Shown here piece by piece: positions 17,933-24,076 of a stretch of 37,401 bases of DNA. Each line of letters begins with the position of its first letter. Position 1 is the stretch's first letter. Source of the stretch: an uncultured bacterium (lineage in GTDB: Bacteria; Bipolaricaulota; Bipolaricaulia; RBG-16-55-9; DRJF01); assembly GCA_913053845.1 (NCBI GenBank), contig CAJXGD010000020.1:1-37401 (forward strand), in the 5' to 3' direction. The notes beneath the pieces were generated by a model, which saw only the letters and a list, made by a program, of their open reading frames with translations, searched no databases and had not been told where the DNA came from. The position numbers and the translations under genes were made by a program.

Positions 17933-19987
17933 TTAGCTCCCTGCTTGTTCTTGTGTTTTCCCACTCCTAATAGCTCCTTTGTCGATCTTAGCTTCGGTCT
18001 CCTTGGGACTGACCCGGGCCAGGCGCATCGCGTTGCCTGTCACCGTCAAGGACATGCCCATATCGCCTACCAAGACGGCGATCACCAGCGTCACCCAGCC
18101 GGGAAAGACCCCTAGGCCCAGCGTGAGTTTCACCGCGATCGCACTCCAAATGTTCTGTCGGATGACACCACGTGCCATCCGACTGAGATACGTCACATAG
18201 GGCAATTTCGAGAGATCATCGGCCATCAGCGCGATATCTGCCGTTTCCAAGGCCGTGTCCGTCCCGGCCGCTCCCATGGCAATCCCCACGGTCGCCACAG
18301 CCAGCGCCGGTGCGTCGTTCACCCCATCGCCCACCATGGCAATACTCCCGTACTCTTCCAATAAATGCTGGATCTCATGCACCTTCTGGTCAGGCATCAG
18401 GCTGGCGTGGAAGTGGGTGATCCCCAACTCCCCAGCGATCGCCCGCGCCGTGCCCTCGTTGTCTCCGGTGATCATTATAATCTCTAAACCCATGGATTTC
18501 AGCTGCGCGATGGCCTGTTGGGCCTCGGGGCGCAGACGATCGGCTACCGCCACGATTCCCCAAAGCTCCCGCTCGCTGCCCACCAGCATCGTCGTCTTGC
18601 CCTCACCCTGAAGCCGAGCCAACTCCTCCCTGGGGATCTCAATGGAGAACTCTTCAAATAACTCGGGCGATCCTAGCAAGCAGACCGCCCCGTCGATCTG
18701 CGCCCGCACCCCCCGGCCGGTGATCGACTCGAACCCCTCGGCTGTCTTCGAGTCGATCCTCTGCTCAGCAGCGCGGCTCAGGATGGCTTGGGCGATGGGA
18801 TGCCCACTGGGGCGCTCCAACGAAGCAGCCAGCATGAGCAGTTCCTCATCGCTGTGACCGCCTAGGGGCATGACGTCGGTGACCTCGGGCCGCCCGCTGG
18901 TGAGAGTGCCCGTCTTATCGAAGGCGATGGCCTTGACTTGGCCCATCGCCTCCAGATATTTCCCGCCCTTGATCAGCACCCCGCCTCGGGCGGCGCTGGT
19001 GATGGCCGACACCACCGAGACGGGGGTGGAGATGAGCAGAGCGCAGGGGCAGGCGATCACCAGCAGCGTGATGGCCCGCAGGAACCAGGGATTGAAGGGA
19101 GCGGCAAAGAGGAGCGGAGGCAGCAGCGCCACGCCCACCGCGACCGCCACAACCGTAGGCGTGTAGTAGCGCCCGAATGTCTCGACAAACCGCTCGCTGG
19201 GGGCCTTTTGCGCCTCGGCCTCCTCAACGAGATGGACGATCTTGGCCAGGGTGGTGTCCTGAACGCGCTTAGTCACTTCAACCTCTACGTACCCCTCTTG
19301 GTTGATCGAGCCGGCGTAGACCCCGTCGCCCTCCTCTTTGTCGACCGGCATCGATTCGCCGGTGATCGGCGCCTGATCCACTGAGGAGCGTCCCCGGATG
19401 ATCAGGCCGTCCATGGCGATCCGCTCGCCCGGCCGCACCGCGATCAGATCGCCGATCTGAATTTCTTCCACTGGCAGAGTTTCTTCCCGACCATCCCGGA
19501 GCACGCGGGCCTGGTTGGGCGCCAGCTTCATCAGTTCTCGCAGCGAGTTACGGGCCCGGTCAACTGAGTATTCTTCCAATAGCTCGGCCAAAGAGAAGAG
19601 AAACGCCAAACTGGCGGCTTCCACATACTCGCCGATGGCGACCGCTCCTCCGATGGCGATGATCATGAGAAAGTTGATGTTGAGCGAGAGCGTGCGCACG
19701 GCTTCGAGGCCCTTGCGGGCGAAGTGATAGGCTCCAAAGAGGATCGCCGCCAAATACCAGAAGGCTGATGCCGCGATGCTGCGCCCAAAAATCACTGTCA
19801 CGGTCGGGTCGAAGCCGGATAAGCTGAGCAATAAGCCGACGGCCAGCAGCAGTCCTGCGATACCGGTGAAGAGCGCTTCGCGCCCCTTCCAGACCGATTG
19901 CCGCTCGTCTTTGGCCGCTAGGTCAGGGGCACAACTGGCGCAACGGGGGTCATTTACGGCCAGCTCTGGTGTCCGTTCGCCCTTCAT
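17933..19987 (-). CDS. zntA: P1B-2-type Zn2+/Cd2+/Pb2+-exporting P-type ATPase
   Basis: This 684-residue heavy-metal efflux ATPase has the metal-site CPC in helix 6 at Cys313-Pro-Cys315 and the phosphorylation site DKTGT at Asp357. The P1B marker GHP is at 395-397 and the hinge GDGVNDAP at 553-560. Lys620 in IAVKLTLG and Asp642 in VGDMGMSL match the helix 7 and 8 residues diagnostic of Zn/Cd/Pb transporters and unlike copper ATPases. There is no folded N-terminal HMA domain. A short tail with RCASC (15-19) remains and may bind metal. The ATG overlaps the stop of the ArsR sensor gene by 4 nt (ATGA), so the two form a sensor-exporter operon. Confidence 0.93.
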   Translation of the reverse strand: MKGERTPELAVNDPRCASCAPDLAAKDERQSVWKGREALFTGIAGLLLAVGLLLSLSGFDPTVTVIFGRSIAASAFWYLAAILFGAYHFARKGLEAVRTLSLNINFLMIIAIGGAVAIGEYVEAASLAFLFSLAELLEEYSVDRARNSLRELMKLAPNQARVLRDGREETLPVEEIQIGDLIAVRPGERIAMDGLIIRGRSSVDQAPITGESMPVDKEEGDGVYAGSINQEGYVEVEVTKRVQDTTLAKIVHLVEEAEAQKAPSERFVETFGRYYTPTVVAVAVGVALLPPLLFAAPFNPWFLRAITLLVIACPCALLISTPVSVVSAITSAARGGVLIKGGKYLEAMGQVKAIAFDKTGTLTSGRPEVTDVMPLGGHSDEELLMLAASLERPSGHPIAQAILSRAAEQRIDSKTAEGFESITGRGVRAQIDGAVCLLGSPELFEEFSIEIPREELARLQGEGKTTMLVGSERELWGIVAVADRLRPEAQQAIAQLKSMGLEIIMITGDNEGTARAIAGELGITHFHASLMPDQKVHEIQHLLEEYGSIAMVGDGVNDAPALAVATVGIAMGAAGTDTALETADIALMADDLSKLPYVTYLSRMARGVIRQNIWSAIAVKLTLGLGVFPGWVTLVIAVLVGDMGMSLTVTGNAMRLARVSPKETEAKIDKGAIRSGKTQEQAGS

Positions 19988-20370
19988 GCCGACTCCTGGA
20001 CGTGCTCCAGGCCCTGCTCGAAGAGTTTTTCGATGTGCCCATCGTCCAGCGAATAATAGACGATGCGCCCCTCTTTCCTGTACTTGACCAGTTGAAGCGC
20101 GCGCAGCAGCCGCAGATGATGAGAGACGGTGGAGTCGCGCATCCCCAAGAGGCTGCTCAGGTCGCAGACGCAGAGCTCGGCTTTGGAGAGCGCGTAGAGA
20201 ATTTTAACTCGCGTTGAATCGCTCAATATCTTGAAGGTCTCGGCCAACTGGAAGGCCACTTCATCGCCGATCATCTGCTCCTGAACGAGCTTGACTTGAG
20301 CCTCGTTGACGTATTTGACCTCGCAGACGTCGTCTTTGCTTCTCTCCGAGGATCGAGTTGTTTGAGTCAA
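19984..20370 (-). CDS. ArsR/SmtB-family metal-sensing repressor
   Basis: The 128-residue winged-helix repressor has LCVCDLSSLLGMRDSTVSHHLRLLRALQLV as the alpha3 and recognition helices. It carries both classic metal sites. The alpha3N site is Cys16 plus Cys67 and Cys69 (CVC, as in CadC) and the alpha5 site is Asp110, His112, His123 and Glu126, with exactly the SmtB/CzrA spacing. It should release DNA on binding Cd/Pb/Zn and so derepress the ATPase next to it. The start is TTG 20370 with AAGGAG 9 nt upstream; a nearby ATG is out of frame. Confidence 0.92.
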   Translation of the reverse strand: MTQTTRSSERSKDDVCEVKYVNEAQVKLVQEQMIGDEVAFQLAETFKILSDSTRVKILYALSKAELCVCDLSSLLGMRDSTVSHHLRLLRALQLVKYRKEGRIVYYSLDDGHIEKLFEQGLEHVQESA

Positions 20371-20389: not shown

Positions 20390-20429
20390 TCTATATCTGC
20401 ATAGCTATCGAATTGTTAAGTATATGCAG
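20390..20429 (-). promoter_or_regulatory. Promoter and candidate ArsR operator upstream of the sensor-ATPase operon
   Basis: On the minus strand TTAACA (complement of 20414-20419) and TATAGA (complement of 20390-20395) lie 18 nt apart, about 20 nt before the TTG. Overlapping them is an inverted repeat CTGCATA (20397-20403) / TATGCAG (20423-20429) with 19 nt between arms, and ATAGCTAT (20401-20408) inside. A repressor on this dyad would cover the promoter, the usual SmtB arrangement. Confidence 0.5.
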
Positions 20430-20531
20430 CTCGCTTCGGGATGTCAAATCTTAGAGTTGTCTCAGGCAAGATGAGCATGAGCGGGGGGATAGCTAACCAC
20501 AAACCGCCTTCACCTTCTTTTCACCCGCTCT

Positions 20532-20562
20532 CCACAAAATCTTCACGATTGTTGAGTATAAT
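20532..20562 (+). promoter_or_regulatory. Promoter of the Met-rich protein-ABC importer operon
   Basis: There is a perfect TATAAT at 20557-20562. The best -35 is weak (TTCACG at 20532-20537, 19 nt spacer). The predicted start site is near 20569, leaving a leader of about 107 nt. A weak -35 suggests need of an activator or control by a repressor. Confidence 0.5.
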
Positions 20563-20676: not shown

Positions 20677-21543
20677 ATGAAGCGAACCAGCTTACTTATC
20701 GGACTAGGAGCATTGCTGCTGGCACTGGCCCTGGCGCAGCCGGGAGTCAGCCAGATGGGCAATCCACCTCCACCCACAGGGCAGAAGATGGCTCCAGCGC
20801 AAAACCCTGAGAAATTGCAACTGGAGATCCAACTGCTGCGGGCGCTGGATATGGCTGGCCTGAGCCCCACGCAGCTCAAGACACTGCATACTATCGTGAC
20901 CGGCTTGCAGGAAGCACAGTCTGGCGTGCAGCAGGCCCAACAGCAGTTGAAAGATTTCCTGGTCGGCTTCCCAGGAGACTCTAGCAAATTTGCGCAGGCC
21001 GTGGCACCCTACGACCAAAGGGTGACAGCGGCTCACCAGGCCTTGCGAACCGCCTTGACCCAAGCGGTCGACCAGGTAAAAAACCTGCTCACCATCAGCC
21101 AAGGCGAGGCCTTGCTCAAAGCGCTCAGGCCGCTGCAACGGCGGATGATGCATGGCCAGGCTGCCATGGCCAGCCCTGTCGCTTGCCAAACGCTGCGCTT
21201 TGACTTCAAGCCGCATCTCGCTCCTAAAGCTGAAACGAAGGACGAGCAGGAGCAGTCAATGATGCAAAACTGGCGGGAAAAGATACAGGCCCTGATGCAA
21301 TTCATGTCCAAGGAGACCATCATGACGCGCCGGCAGGGGCAATTCAGCGTTCAGAATATGCCCATGGAGCAAATGTTGCAGCAAATGCAACAGATGATGA
21401 GGCGGATGCATGCTACCTTCCGCAGCCAGTGTGCACCGGCTCAGGCGGAGTGGAGTCAATTGCTGGTGGGCCACCTGGAGCTCCTGCAGCAAGTCCTCCA
21501 GGAGAGGCTGGCCAAGTTGGCCCTGGCCCTGCCCCAGAGCTAG
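20677..21543 (+). CDS. Secreted Met- and Gln-rich Spy/CpxP-like protein
   Basis: The protein has 288 residues, a clean signal peptide (TSLLIGLGALLLALALA) and a predicted all-helical mature chain very rich in Gln, Leu and Met. Two LTxxQ-like motifs occur, LSPTQ (62-66) and LTISQ (138-142), as in periplasmic Spy/CpxP/CnrX-type proteins, which act as chaperones or metal-stress sensors. A dense methionine segment spans 228-244 (MPMEQMLQQMQQMMRRM), with seven Met in 17 residues, a pattern of soft-metal (copper-like) binding. Cys170 and Cys252 could form a disulfide. An SD (AGGGGG) is 8 nt before the ATG. It is the first gene of the importer operon and ends 15 nt before the binding-protein gene. 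I do not recognise a named family at full length. Confidence 0.6.
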   Translation: MKRTSLLIGLGALLLALALAQPGVSQMGNPPPPTGQKMAPAQNPEKLQLEIQLLRALDMAGLSPTQLKTLHTIVTGLQEAQSGVQQAQQQLKDFLVGFPGDSSKFAQAVAPYDQRVTAAHQALRTALTQAVDQVKNLLTISQGEALLKALRPLQRRMMHGQAAMASPVACQTLRFDFKPHLAPKAETKDEQEQSMMQNWREKIQALMQFMSKETIMTRRQGQFSVQNMPMEQMLQQMQQMMRRMHATFRSQCAPAQAEWSQLLVGHLELLQQVLQERLAKLALALPQS

Positions 21544-21558
21544 AGCTACGGCTGCCAG

Positions 21559-22461
21559 TTGAGATACCCAGAGCTGGCGGGAGGAGTCCGCACCGCTCTC
21601 GGCGTCGGGCTCCTCCTGTTGGTGCTCTCCGGCACCGGATGCAGCCGGCCACCGGCCGTCGGTGCTCAGCTCCTCGTCGTAGCCAGCATCGCCCCCTTGG
21701 GTGACTTCGCTCATCAGGTCGGTGGCAAGCTGGTGCAGGTCACGGTCATCCTGCCGCCGGGGATCAACCCCAAGACCTACGAGCCGACGCCAGAGCAGAT
21801 GCGCCTGATCTCCCGGGCGCGCCTGCTAGTGCTCAATGGCATCAGTTTGGAGTTCTGGGCGGACAAGGCGATCGCCGCCGCTGACAATTCCAAGCTAATC
21901 GTTGTCGACACCTCAAGTGGCCTGAAAGTGCTTGCTGGTGGTGCCGGTGAGCCTGGTGGTAACCCGCACGTCTGGCTCGACCCGCTCGATGCCATCGTGC
22001 AAGTCGAGCACATCCGTGATGGGTTGCTTCGTGCTGACCCTGGACACGCCAGTAGCTATCGCGCCAATGCCGCCGCCTATATCAAGCGTCTCCGGGCGCT
22101 TGACCAGCAGATCAGAACGCAGGTGGCCGGCTGGTCCCATCGGGAGTTCGTCGCCCTCCAACCAGCTTGGGCTTACTTCGCCAGGCGGTATGGGCTCGTT
22201 GAGGCGGGTGTGATCAACTCCTCTCCAGGCAGAGAGCCTACGCCGGCCGAGTTGGCCCAAATCATCGCAACAACCAAGAAAAATAAAATCAAAGCGATCT
22301 TTGCCGTGGTGCAGTTCTCACCCAAAGCCGCGGAAATCATCGCCGCTGAGACCGGTGCCCAGGTGGTGGAGCTCGATCCCCTGGGCGGCGTCCCCGGTCG
22401 GCAGAGCTACCTGGAGCTGATGCGCTATAATCTGGCTCAGATGGAGCGAGCCCTGCGATGA
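21559..22461 (+). CDS. ZnuA/TroA-like metal ABC transporter binding lipoprotein with altered ligand site
   Basis: This 300-residue cluster A-I solute-binding protein begins with a hydrophobic signal and a likely lipoprotein cysteine at 28 (LSGTGC). It shows the family fold: VVASIAPLGDFAHQVGG, VILPPGINPKTYEPTPEQM, GNPHVWLDPLDA, AYFARRYGLVEAG and VVELDPLGG. In ZnuA/TroA the metal is held by His in P-x-H-x-Y/P-H-x-Y-E-P, His in NPH, a third His, and Asp/Glu. Here the first is Lys72, the second is His137, the third position reads LQPAW (Gln201) and Asp273 is kept. Standard zinc or manganese coordination is therefore unlikely. No His-rich loop is present. The start is TTG with a weak SD, probably coupled to the upstream gene; the ATPase overlaps its 3' end. 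Confidence 0.8.
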   Translation: MRYPELAGGVRTALGVGLLLLVLSGTGCSRPPAVGAQLLVVASIAPLGDFAHQVGGKLVQVTVILPPGINPKTYEPTPEQMRLISRARLLVLNGISLEFWADKAIAAADNSKLIVVDTSSGLKVLAGGAGEPGGNPHVWLDPLDAIVQVEHIRDGLLRADPGHASSYRANAAAYIKRLRALDQQIRTQVAGWSHREFVALQPAWAYFARRYGLVEAGVINSSPGREPTPAELAQIIATTKKNKIKAIFAVVQFSPKAAEIIAAETGAQVVELDPLGGVPGRQSYLELMRYNLAQMERALR

Positions 22462-23246
22462 ACGAAGCCATTATCGAATTAGCGAAGGTCTCGGCGGCTT
22501 ACAACGGGGAGCTGGCGCTGCAAGAGGTCTCTCTGACCGTGCAGCGCGGCGAGTTCCTGGCGATCGTCGGTCCCAACGGCTCGGGCAAGACGACCCTGCT
22601 CAAGGTCGTGCTGGGCCTGCTGCGCCCGCTGGCCGGCCGGGTGCGCGTCTTCGGCCGCCCCCCTTGGCAGCTGGGGACCGAGCGATGGCGCATCGGCTAC
22701 GTGCCGCAGGTCCACCAGGCCGACCTGCGCTTCCCGGTCAACGCCTATCAGACGGTGCTGATGGGTCGCTACGGTCAGCTGGGGCTCTTCCACCGTCCAG
22801 GCCCTCGGGACCGAGCGGCAGCGGAGCAGGCGCTGGAGCGCGTCGCCCTCAGCGAGCTGGCTCAGCACCCCATCGGAAAACTCTCCGGGGGCCAGCGCCA
22901 GCGGGTCTACCTCGCCCGAGCCCTGGTAGCCCAGCCAGAGCTGCTCCTGCTCGATGAGCCGACCACCGGGGTGGATCCCGGCGCGAGCGAGAGTTTCTAC
23001 GAACTGCTCAGCTCACTCCACGCCGAGGGGCTGACCATCGTGCTTATCTCACATGATGTGGGTGTGGTGGCACAGCAGGTAGATCAGGTGGCCTGTCTCA
23101 ACCGGCGCCTGATCGTCCATGGACGCCCTCAAGAGGTCTTGAGCTCCGAGGCCTTGGCCCAGATGTACGGCTGCGAGGCGGTGCTCTTTTTGCATGGACG
23201 GGTGCCGCACATAGTCGTGGAGCGGCCGGAGGAGAATCGATCCTAA
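22458..23246 (+). CDS. znuC: ZnuC-type metal ABC transporter ATP-binding protein
   Basis: This 262-residue ATPase has Walker [10 protein letters not shown] (38-46), signature LSGGQ (142-146), Walker B LLLLDEP (162-168) and a SHD switch histidine. The region [29 protein letters not shown] between Walker A and the signature, with its PV-x-x-x-x-TV-x-MGRYG pattern, is typical of cluster A-I (ZnuC/MntB) ATPases. Its ATG overlaps the binding-protein stop (ATGA). The gene symbol follows family similarity; the true metal is uncertain because the binding protein is unusual. Confidence 0.88.
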
Positions 23247-23248
23247 CC

Positions 23249-24076
23249 GTGGAGATCTTCCAGTACGCCTTCATGCAGCGGGCACTGCTCGCCGGGGTGC
23301 TCATCGGAGCTATCTGCGCGGTGATCGGCGTCTATATGGTGCTGCGGGGACTCGCCTTCCTCGGTGCCGGGATCGCCCACGCGTCTTTCGGTGGGGTGGC
23401 TCTGGGCTTTCTGCTGAAGATCAACCCACTGCTCTCGGCGATCGTCTTCTGTCTGGCCACCGCCTGGGGCATCGGCTATACGGCCCGCAAGGGTCAGATC
23501 AAAGAGGACGTAGCCATTGGGATCCTCTTCGCCTCAACGTTGGCCTTGGGCATTCTGATCATCGGCCTGATGCCGAGCTACAACGTGGATCTCTTCGGCT
23601 ATCTCTTCGGCAGCATCCTGGCAGTGACCCCGTTTGATCTGCTCCTCACCGCCGGCCTGGGGGTGGGGGTGCTGCTGACCGTGGCCCTCTTCTACAAAGA
23701 ACTGCTCTATATCTCATTCGACCCGGAGATGGCCCAGGCGAGCGGGCTGCCGGTGAGCCGGCTCTACTTTCTGCTGCTCGGTTTGATCGCCATCACGGTG
23801 GTCATCTCGCTCAAGGTGGTAGGGATCCTGCTAGTCACCGCGCTACTGGTCACTCCAGCCGCCGCAGCCTATCAGCTCACGCAAGACATTCGCACCATGA
23901 TGTTCCTCGCGGTGCTGCTGGGCGTGGGGGCGGCCGTCGGGGGTGTGCTGCTCTCCTATGTGCTGAATACCGCCTCAGGGGCGACCATTGTGCTCCTCTC
24001 GACCCTGAGTTTTTTCCTAGCAGCGTCACTCTCACCCCAGCGCCGGCGGGCCAGGCGGCGAGATATGTCAGGCTAA
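23249..24076 (+). CDS. znuB: ZnuB-type metal ABC transporter permease
   Basis: The 275-residue inner-membrane permease has about eight hydrophobic segments. MEIFQYAFMQRALLAGVLIGAICAVIGVYMVLRGLAFLGAGIAHASFGGVALG is the standard opening of the family, shown here in outline by YAFMQRALLAG and GIAHASFGGVALG. SFDPEMAQASGLPVSRL is the cytoplasmic coupling loop, and LLVTALLVTPAAAAYQLTQDI is the conserved late block. The start is GTG, 2 nt after the ATPase stop. Its TAA stop overlaps the TAG stop of the cytochrome gene on the other strand. Confidence 0.92.
   Translation: MEIFQYAFMQRALLAGVLIGAICAVIGVYMVLRGLAFLGAGIAHASFGGVALGFLLKINPLLSAIVFCLATAWGIGYTARKGQIKEDVAIGILFASTLALGILIIGLMPSYNVDLFGYLFGSILAVTPFDLLLTAGLGVGVLLTVALFYKELLYISFDPEMAQASGLPVSRLYFLLLGLIAITVVISLKVVGILLVTALLVTPAAAAYQLTQDIRTMMFLAVLLGVGAAVGGVLLSYVLNTASGATIVLLSTLSFFLAASLSPQRRRARRRDMSG

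Follow-up and report, generated by a model that had tools for sequence, protein, structure and literature searches.

The window analysed here, a 37,401-nt stretch of DNA from an uncultured bacterium of the phylum Bipolaricaulota (host genome of 2.3 Mb, 90.6% complete), is the source of all features listed in Table 1 and contains a metal importer of the Znu/Tro type headed by a methionine-rich extracytoplasmic protein, denoted MET. The MET gene is followed, after a gap of 15 bp and in the same direction, by genes for a solute-binding protein (SBP), an ATP-binding cassette (ABC) ATPase and an ABC-3 permease; these four open reading frames (ORFs) on the plus strand lie where a preliminary description of the stretch had placed them. 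Because of the gene order and the overlaps, MET and the complete importer are predicted to be a single four-gene operon. We propose, with moderate confidence, that this operon serves metal homeostasis of the envelope under two-component control and that its importer binds metal at a site that is weakened and exchanges faster. The operon anatomy, the intact transporter, the altered site, the recurrent linkage and the conserved promoter box with its fixed −10 element can be regarded as established from the sequence.

The importer resembles ZnuABC, TroABC and PsaABC in that SBP, ATPase and ABC-3 permease are encoded in one operon, with full-length matches to PF01297 (profile positions 1-263 of 263) and PF00950. 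The SBP is accordingly of the cluster A-I type, and the co-encoded ATPase and permease with intact motifs are those of a cluster A-I importer. Comparison with relatives revealed no departures at conserved columns in the ATPase and only four minor ones in the permease, in line with the preliminary description, which had judged both to be ordinary. The GAG-x-AH motif of the permease, common to most relatives, presumably falls at the position of PsaC Asp46/His50 in the alignment. Residues Asp46 and His50 of PsaC are described in PMC11779740.

The window operon differs from these systems in having MET at its head and in the metal site of its SBP. Alignment bore out the preliminary reading of Lys72 and Gln201 in place of histidines: the canonical His/His/His-or-Glu/Asp ligand set of ZnuA and TroA was absent from the window SBP (K72, H137, Q201, D273), only H137 and D273 being kept, and no histidine realigned into the site. 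At position 201 all 80 relatives of the genome_contigs set and Synechocystis ZnuA have His, and at position 250 the same sequences have Glu where the window SBP has Val; at position 72, occupied by Lys in the window SBP, the 80 relatives have His except for one Glu (L053), one Ala (L083) and one row not covered. The two exceptional SBPs, both from Gemmatimonadetes, keep the remaining ligands. Class relatives of ~52% identity (L115-L120) retain the full set of His, His, His, Glu and Asp. At the 39 columns with ≥90% conservation among the relatives, the window SBP departs four times (72, 96, 201 and 250), and three of these positions belong to the site (hypergeometric p = 0.0017). For the other sequences the mean is 1.55 departures at these columns, with two site departures in total. 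Position 250, though not a standard first-shell ligand, is probably part of the metal site because of its invariance in the relatives and its neighbourhood.

An alignment artefact was rejected as the source of these changes, since the motifs align in several separate alignments, and a sequence error is unlikely for an intact frame with three separate codons affected, albeit in one genome only. A pseudogene was rejected as well, 35 of the 39 conserved columns being kept. The SBP might nonetheless no longer bind metal, either because a Lys72-Asp273 salt bridge mimics the bound metal or because the protein is drifting, in which case the importer would be poor or ungated. In favour of this reading, two of three histidines and the invariant Glu were lost together, and another MET-linked importer, that of genome G074, combines a 96-residue SBP remnant with an intact ATPase and permease. 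We nevertheless consider loss of binding rather unlikely, given the retained columns, the intact frame and a confident model (predicted local distance difference test, pLDDT, of 89.5); moreover, the SBP, like the permease, is the sole member of its family found in its own genome, and zinc import would then require another route. A double histidine mutant of AztC, H138/204A, still binds about one zinc with a dissociation constant (Kd) of ≤0.1 nM and releases it fast (PMC7463823). Ligand loss therefore need not mean a new metal, and nothing shows the metal other than zinc or manganese that had been suggested in the preliminary description.

A second family of ZnuA-like SBPs is present in the class, in which CPxHYD replaces DPH, no His is found at position 137, and position 201 is Gln or Met. 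Its members are encoded in operons with an ATPase and a permease (L167:5918-6778 (-), L168:5787-6689 (+), and also L107, L108 and L112-L114); L167 also has a gene for an FmdE-domain protein, which lies between those for the SBP and the ATPase.

The pairing of MET with an importer is recurrent. A profile of the MET family matched 45 of 100 genomes of the phylum, and MET adjoins a Znu-type importer in nine genomes including that of the window, in two unrelated importer lineages; co-occurrence in other genomes of the class, raised as a check in the preliminary description, was thus found. Intact SBP-ATPase-permease sets lie beside MET in the window and in seven further genomes (G067, G068, G069, G070, G092, G093 and G095), where the order is regulator-kinase, MET on the opposite strand, and SBP-ATPase-permease. 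G074 has the same gene set as these seven, with the SBP remnant at L185:5633-5920 (+); the middle of the protein is missing, which could reflect decay, an assembly error or a real reduction. H72, H137 and H201 are all present in those MET-linked SBPs of other genomes that were examined, and the loss of ligands in the window SBP is therefore taken to be lineage-specific. The preliminary description had tied the altered site to the pairing, a connection that found no support in that form: the pairing neither requires nor explains the lost ligands. In a phylogenetic tree the window SBP was split from the other MET-linked SBPs, and the approximately unbiased (AU) test rejected a single clade (p = 5e-34), and with it the idea that the MET-linked importers all descend from one. 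These data therefore indicate that the MET-importer linkage was made at least twice. The idea that MET is tied solely to the ArsR-P1B exporter unit that faces it in the window was dropped after the phylum search had shown the recurrent importer linkage.

Recurrence also bears on two other explanations. The importer could have been inserted by horizontal transfer beside an unrelated ArsR-P1B-MET island and be a chance neighbour, as might be read from two order relatives (G015 and G018) that have ArsR-P1B-MET without an importer, and from the nearest importer relatives, which belong partly to other phyla and partly to a different family of the class. We think this very unlikely, given that the adjacency of MET and importer was made independently in family f9 and that MET and importer in the window run in one direction with hardly a gap between them. 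Alternatively, as the preliminary description had it, MET could be a metallochaperone delivering metal, not necessarily zinc, to the altered SBP site, in keeping with the short gap within a shared operon and the recurrent pairing. The pairing of an extracytoplasmic metal-binding protein with a cluster A-I SBP is known in principle, AztD handing zinc to AztC (PMC7463823). Like AztABCD, the window operon encodes an extracytoplasmic protein with a cluster A-I importer; however, AztD is a beta-propeller and MET a helical hairpin, transfer was demonstrated for AztD-AztC only, and no gene for an AztD-type beta-propeller partner was found in the window operon. Handover to the altered site is in our view unlikely, since other MET-linked SBPs keep all histidines, so that handover does not require an altered site, and since MET has no conserved His/Cys ligand set.

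Upstream of MET an array of four TTCAC half-sites with an 11-bp period precedes the −10 element (Table 1). This pattern was first spotted by eye and the statistical tests came later. Of 5000 shuffles, 0 had three or more phased half-sites, and three half-sites in a row were found nowhere else in the host genome. In the MET family, 27 of 50 promoters have at least two phased half-sites compared with 0.54 expected from shuffles, and such sites occur at 2 of 492 control regions upstream of other ORFs of the same loci, these ORFs being mechanical calls and not all genes. A TANNNT −10 element starts exactly 5 nt past the array in 23 of the 27 promoters, compared with at most one at any other offset. 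Phased half-sites are present in four families of the class, with the fixed −10 element in three (f1, f5 and f9); the four f6 promoters are without it in this register. Arrays of 11-bp-phased repeats are typical of OmpR/PhoB-type regulators, and the PhoP boxes of Streptomyces, with GTTCACC repeats, look similar to the MET array. Direct repeats of this phasing upstream of a −10 element mark the MET promoter as a putative target of an OmpR/PhoB-type regulator. The regulators adjoining MET are themselves of this type (Response_reg and Trans_reg_C domains), and a regulator/kinase pair adjoins MET in 12 genomes, four of them (G078, G091, G094 and G001) without an importer. The window genome encodes two homologues of the kinase that align over the whole query (44% and 42%) and regulators at 56% and 54% identity, which are not linked to MET. 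Overall, the interpretation in the preliminary description, which was silent on promoter repeats, two-component regulation and the facing ArsR and P1B-ATPase genes, is partly supported; the ingredient it missed is regulation, the MET family being tied to two-component systems.

MET itself comprises 288 residues with 19 Met. The seven Met within 17 residues (in MPMEQMLQQMQQMMRRM) and the LTxxQ-type motifs noted in the preliminary description were confirmed, the latter as LSPTQ (62-66) and LTISQ (138-142). L62, Q66, L138 and Q142 are invariant across 14 MET homologues, and the two motifs lie in places equivalent to those of Spy and CpxP. In the AlphaFold model, pLDDT exceeds 90 over residues 51-150, and residues 44-161 form a confident helical hairpin core. 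The best-supported structural matches in Foldseek were CnrX chains (probability up to 0.97, TMt 0.54-0.58, best E = 0.23), and PF13801 (Metal_resist) gave a weak match in one MET homologue (E 0.0098). Direct searches of Pfam and NCBIfam with MET returned nothing named, and profile searching of the PDB from the MET alignment gave no useful match. With CpxP/CpxRA, ZraP/ZraSR, Spy/BaeSR and CnrX, its best structural match, MET has in common that it is a predicted periplasmic helical protein, with two LTxxQ-like motifs and with proximity to, and probably regulation by, a two-component system. Unlike these proteins, it has a Met-rich tail and a metal importer as partner, and lacks a Pfam LTXXQ match and conserved metal-binding His. 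Met-richness varies within the family; it is a trait of the C-terminal half and is strongest in members facing ArsR-P1B and in L135.

Alternatively, MET could be an ordinary envelope chaperone or a feedback inhibitor of a stress kinase, in the role of Spy or CpxP, with the importer as one more regulon target and no metal passed. The two-component linkage in 12 genomes fits such a role, as do the many family members that lack Met-richness and have no metal genes nearby (e.g. L139-L143). It is a possible explanation, albeit a doubtful one, because metal transporters neighbour MET far oftener than random placement would give, the row of three half-sites is confined to this locus in its own genome, and the three members facing ArsR-P1B (window, G015 and G018) are strongly Met-rich. 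At locus L143:8023-8802 (-), next to a regulator-like ORF of 1216 aa, the same genome encodes a second MET paralogue, which is poor in Met and has no repeat box.

Several points weigh against the operon reading that we favour. Pfam LTXXQ gave no match for MET at E up to 0.1 or for its homologues at E up to 1, and the profile link to Spy/CpxP/ZraP is weak, in that hhalign aligned both LTxxQ motifs (E 0.0046) at a probability of only 7.6%. No His was found among the invariant or nearly invariant columns of the MET family, so a conserved His/Glu/Met site of the CnrX type is absent, and Met-richness is missing from many paralogues, leaving a metal role for every member unproven. The window MET has no adjoining two-component genes and a regulator acting in trans is an assumption; all changes in the SBP site rest on one genome. 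Finally, the nearest importer relatives (50-58% identity) lack both MET and the exporter, and no importer relative in genome_contigs has a MET, ArsR or P1B gene within the fetched flanks. The preliminary description would have counted importer relatives that never carry the Met-rich gene against its own reading, which holds for these nearest relatives though not across the class.

The unit facing MET has a strong promoter-like sequence and consists of an ArsR/SmtB metalloregulator and a P1B-type Zn/Cd ATPase, both assigned by matches above the cut-offs given in Table 1, and both conserved in the order; the regulator shares ~70-78% identity with its counterparts at this exporter in six order relatives. 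Its ELCVCDL and D-x-H...H-x2-E motifs are, we presume, those of CadC/SmtB sensors. As in CadC/SmtB-P1B exporter operons, an ArsR-family regulator is followed by a Zn/Cd P1B-ATPase; in contrast to them, the window unit lies across a common intergenic region from an importer operon. The divergent operon of G015 and G018 has no importer; it encodes MET along with a DUF302 protein and a YncE-like propeller, whose match to AztD is only weak. In the G018 operon a Met/His-rich secreted protein with no Pfam match (L137:2441-3178 (+)) precedes MET, and in G015 (L136) the upstream region shows a similar start. In the order relatives the ars promoter reads TTGACA-17-TATAAT and is followed by a palindrome at a place equivalent to that in the window. 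Upstream of the ArsR gene in L202-L205 and L137, this conserved palindrome, around ATGATTCAACAATT...AATCATT directly after TTGACA-17-TATAAT, is a likely ArsR operator in the order; examination of intergenic inverted repeats as ArsR operators showed that the window palindrome differs from it.

Table 1. Features of the importer operon and of the facing exporter unit in the window.
Feature	Position	Strand	Evidence
P1B-type heavy-metal exporting ATPase (Zn/Cd/Pb group), divergent neighbour	17933..19987	-	TIGR01525 617.6 bits (cut-off 346), TIGR01512 520.6 bits (cut-off 313.5)
ArsR/SmtB metalloregulator	19984..20370	-	NF033788 100.5 bits (cut-off 55)
Imperfect palindrome CTGCATA-N19-TATGCAG over ars promoter, possible ArsR operator	20397..20429		Sequence; palindrome at equivalent place in order relatives
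Promoter-like TTGACA-17-TATACT for ars-P1B	20419..20447	-	11/12 consensus matches
Four 11-bp direct repeats CTTCACCTTCT TTTCACCCGCT CTCCACAAAAT CTTCACGATTG, putative OmpR/PhoB-type response-regulator box	20508..20551	+	Phasing statistics
−10 element TATAAT, exactly 5 nt past repeat array	20557..20562	+	Offset conserved across MET family promoters
MET, Met-rich extracytoplasmic helical protein, putative CnrX/CpxP/ZraP-like fold, signal-peptide-like N-terminus	20677..21543	+	AlphaFold, Foldseek, family profile
SBP, ZnuA/TroA-type metal-binding protein with K72, H137, Q201, V250, D273	21559..22461	+	PF01297 267 bits; site comparison; model pLDDT 89.5
ABC ATPase; Walker A, signature, Walker B and H-loop motifs all present	22458..23246	+	Motif reading
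ABC-3 permease	23249..24076	+	PF00950 269.8 bits; single match in own genome

Taken together, these data suggest the following working of the locus, in which the acting regulator, the metal and any contact between MET and the SBP are what we infer. An OmpR/PhoB-type response regulator, acting in trans, would activate the operon on an envelope metal signal. Outside the membrane, MET would act as a buffer or sensor of divalent metal and, in the manner of CpxP or ZraP, may hold back its kinase. The importer would take up divalent metal, most simply Zn(II), through an SBP that may bind it more weakly or exchange it faster because only two canonical ligands, H137 and D273, are left in its site; possibly MET transfers metal to the SBP, or the substrate is not zinc. 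The facing ArsR-P1B unit would export excess Zn/Cd from the cytosol and so protect it; in that case both sides of the metal balance would be encoded at one locus. A bolder version, which we regard as improbable, is that a dedicated two-component regulon controls, throughout the phylum, a new Met-rich CnrX-like family that loads or gates Znu-type importers directly, and that here the partner took over ligand provision, allowing the SBP to lose two His and the conserved Glu.

Each part of the locus resembles a known kind, while the combination and the shared promoter appear to be undescribed; a limited literature search found nothing equivalent to either. By its gene neighbourhoods, its links to two-component genes and its conserved promoter, an uncharacterised envelope protein family is tied to metal import, and a candidate regulator class and DNA site can now be named. 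The SBP, a natural cluster A-I protein with two His replaced, is a counterpart of the laboratory AztC variant H138/204A and bears on the number of ligands that such an importer needs.

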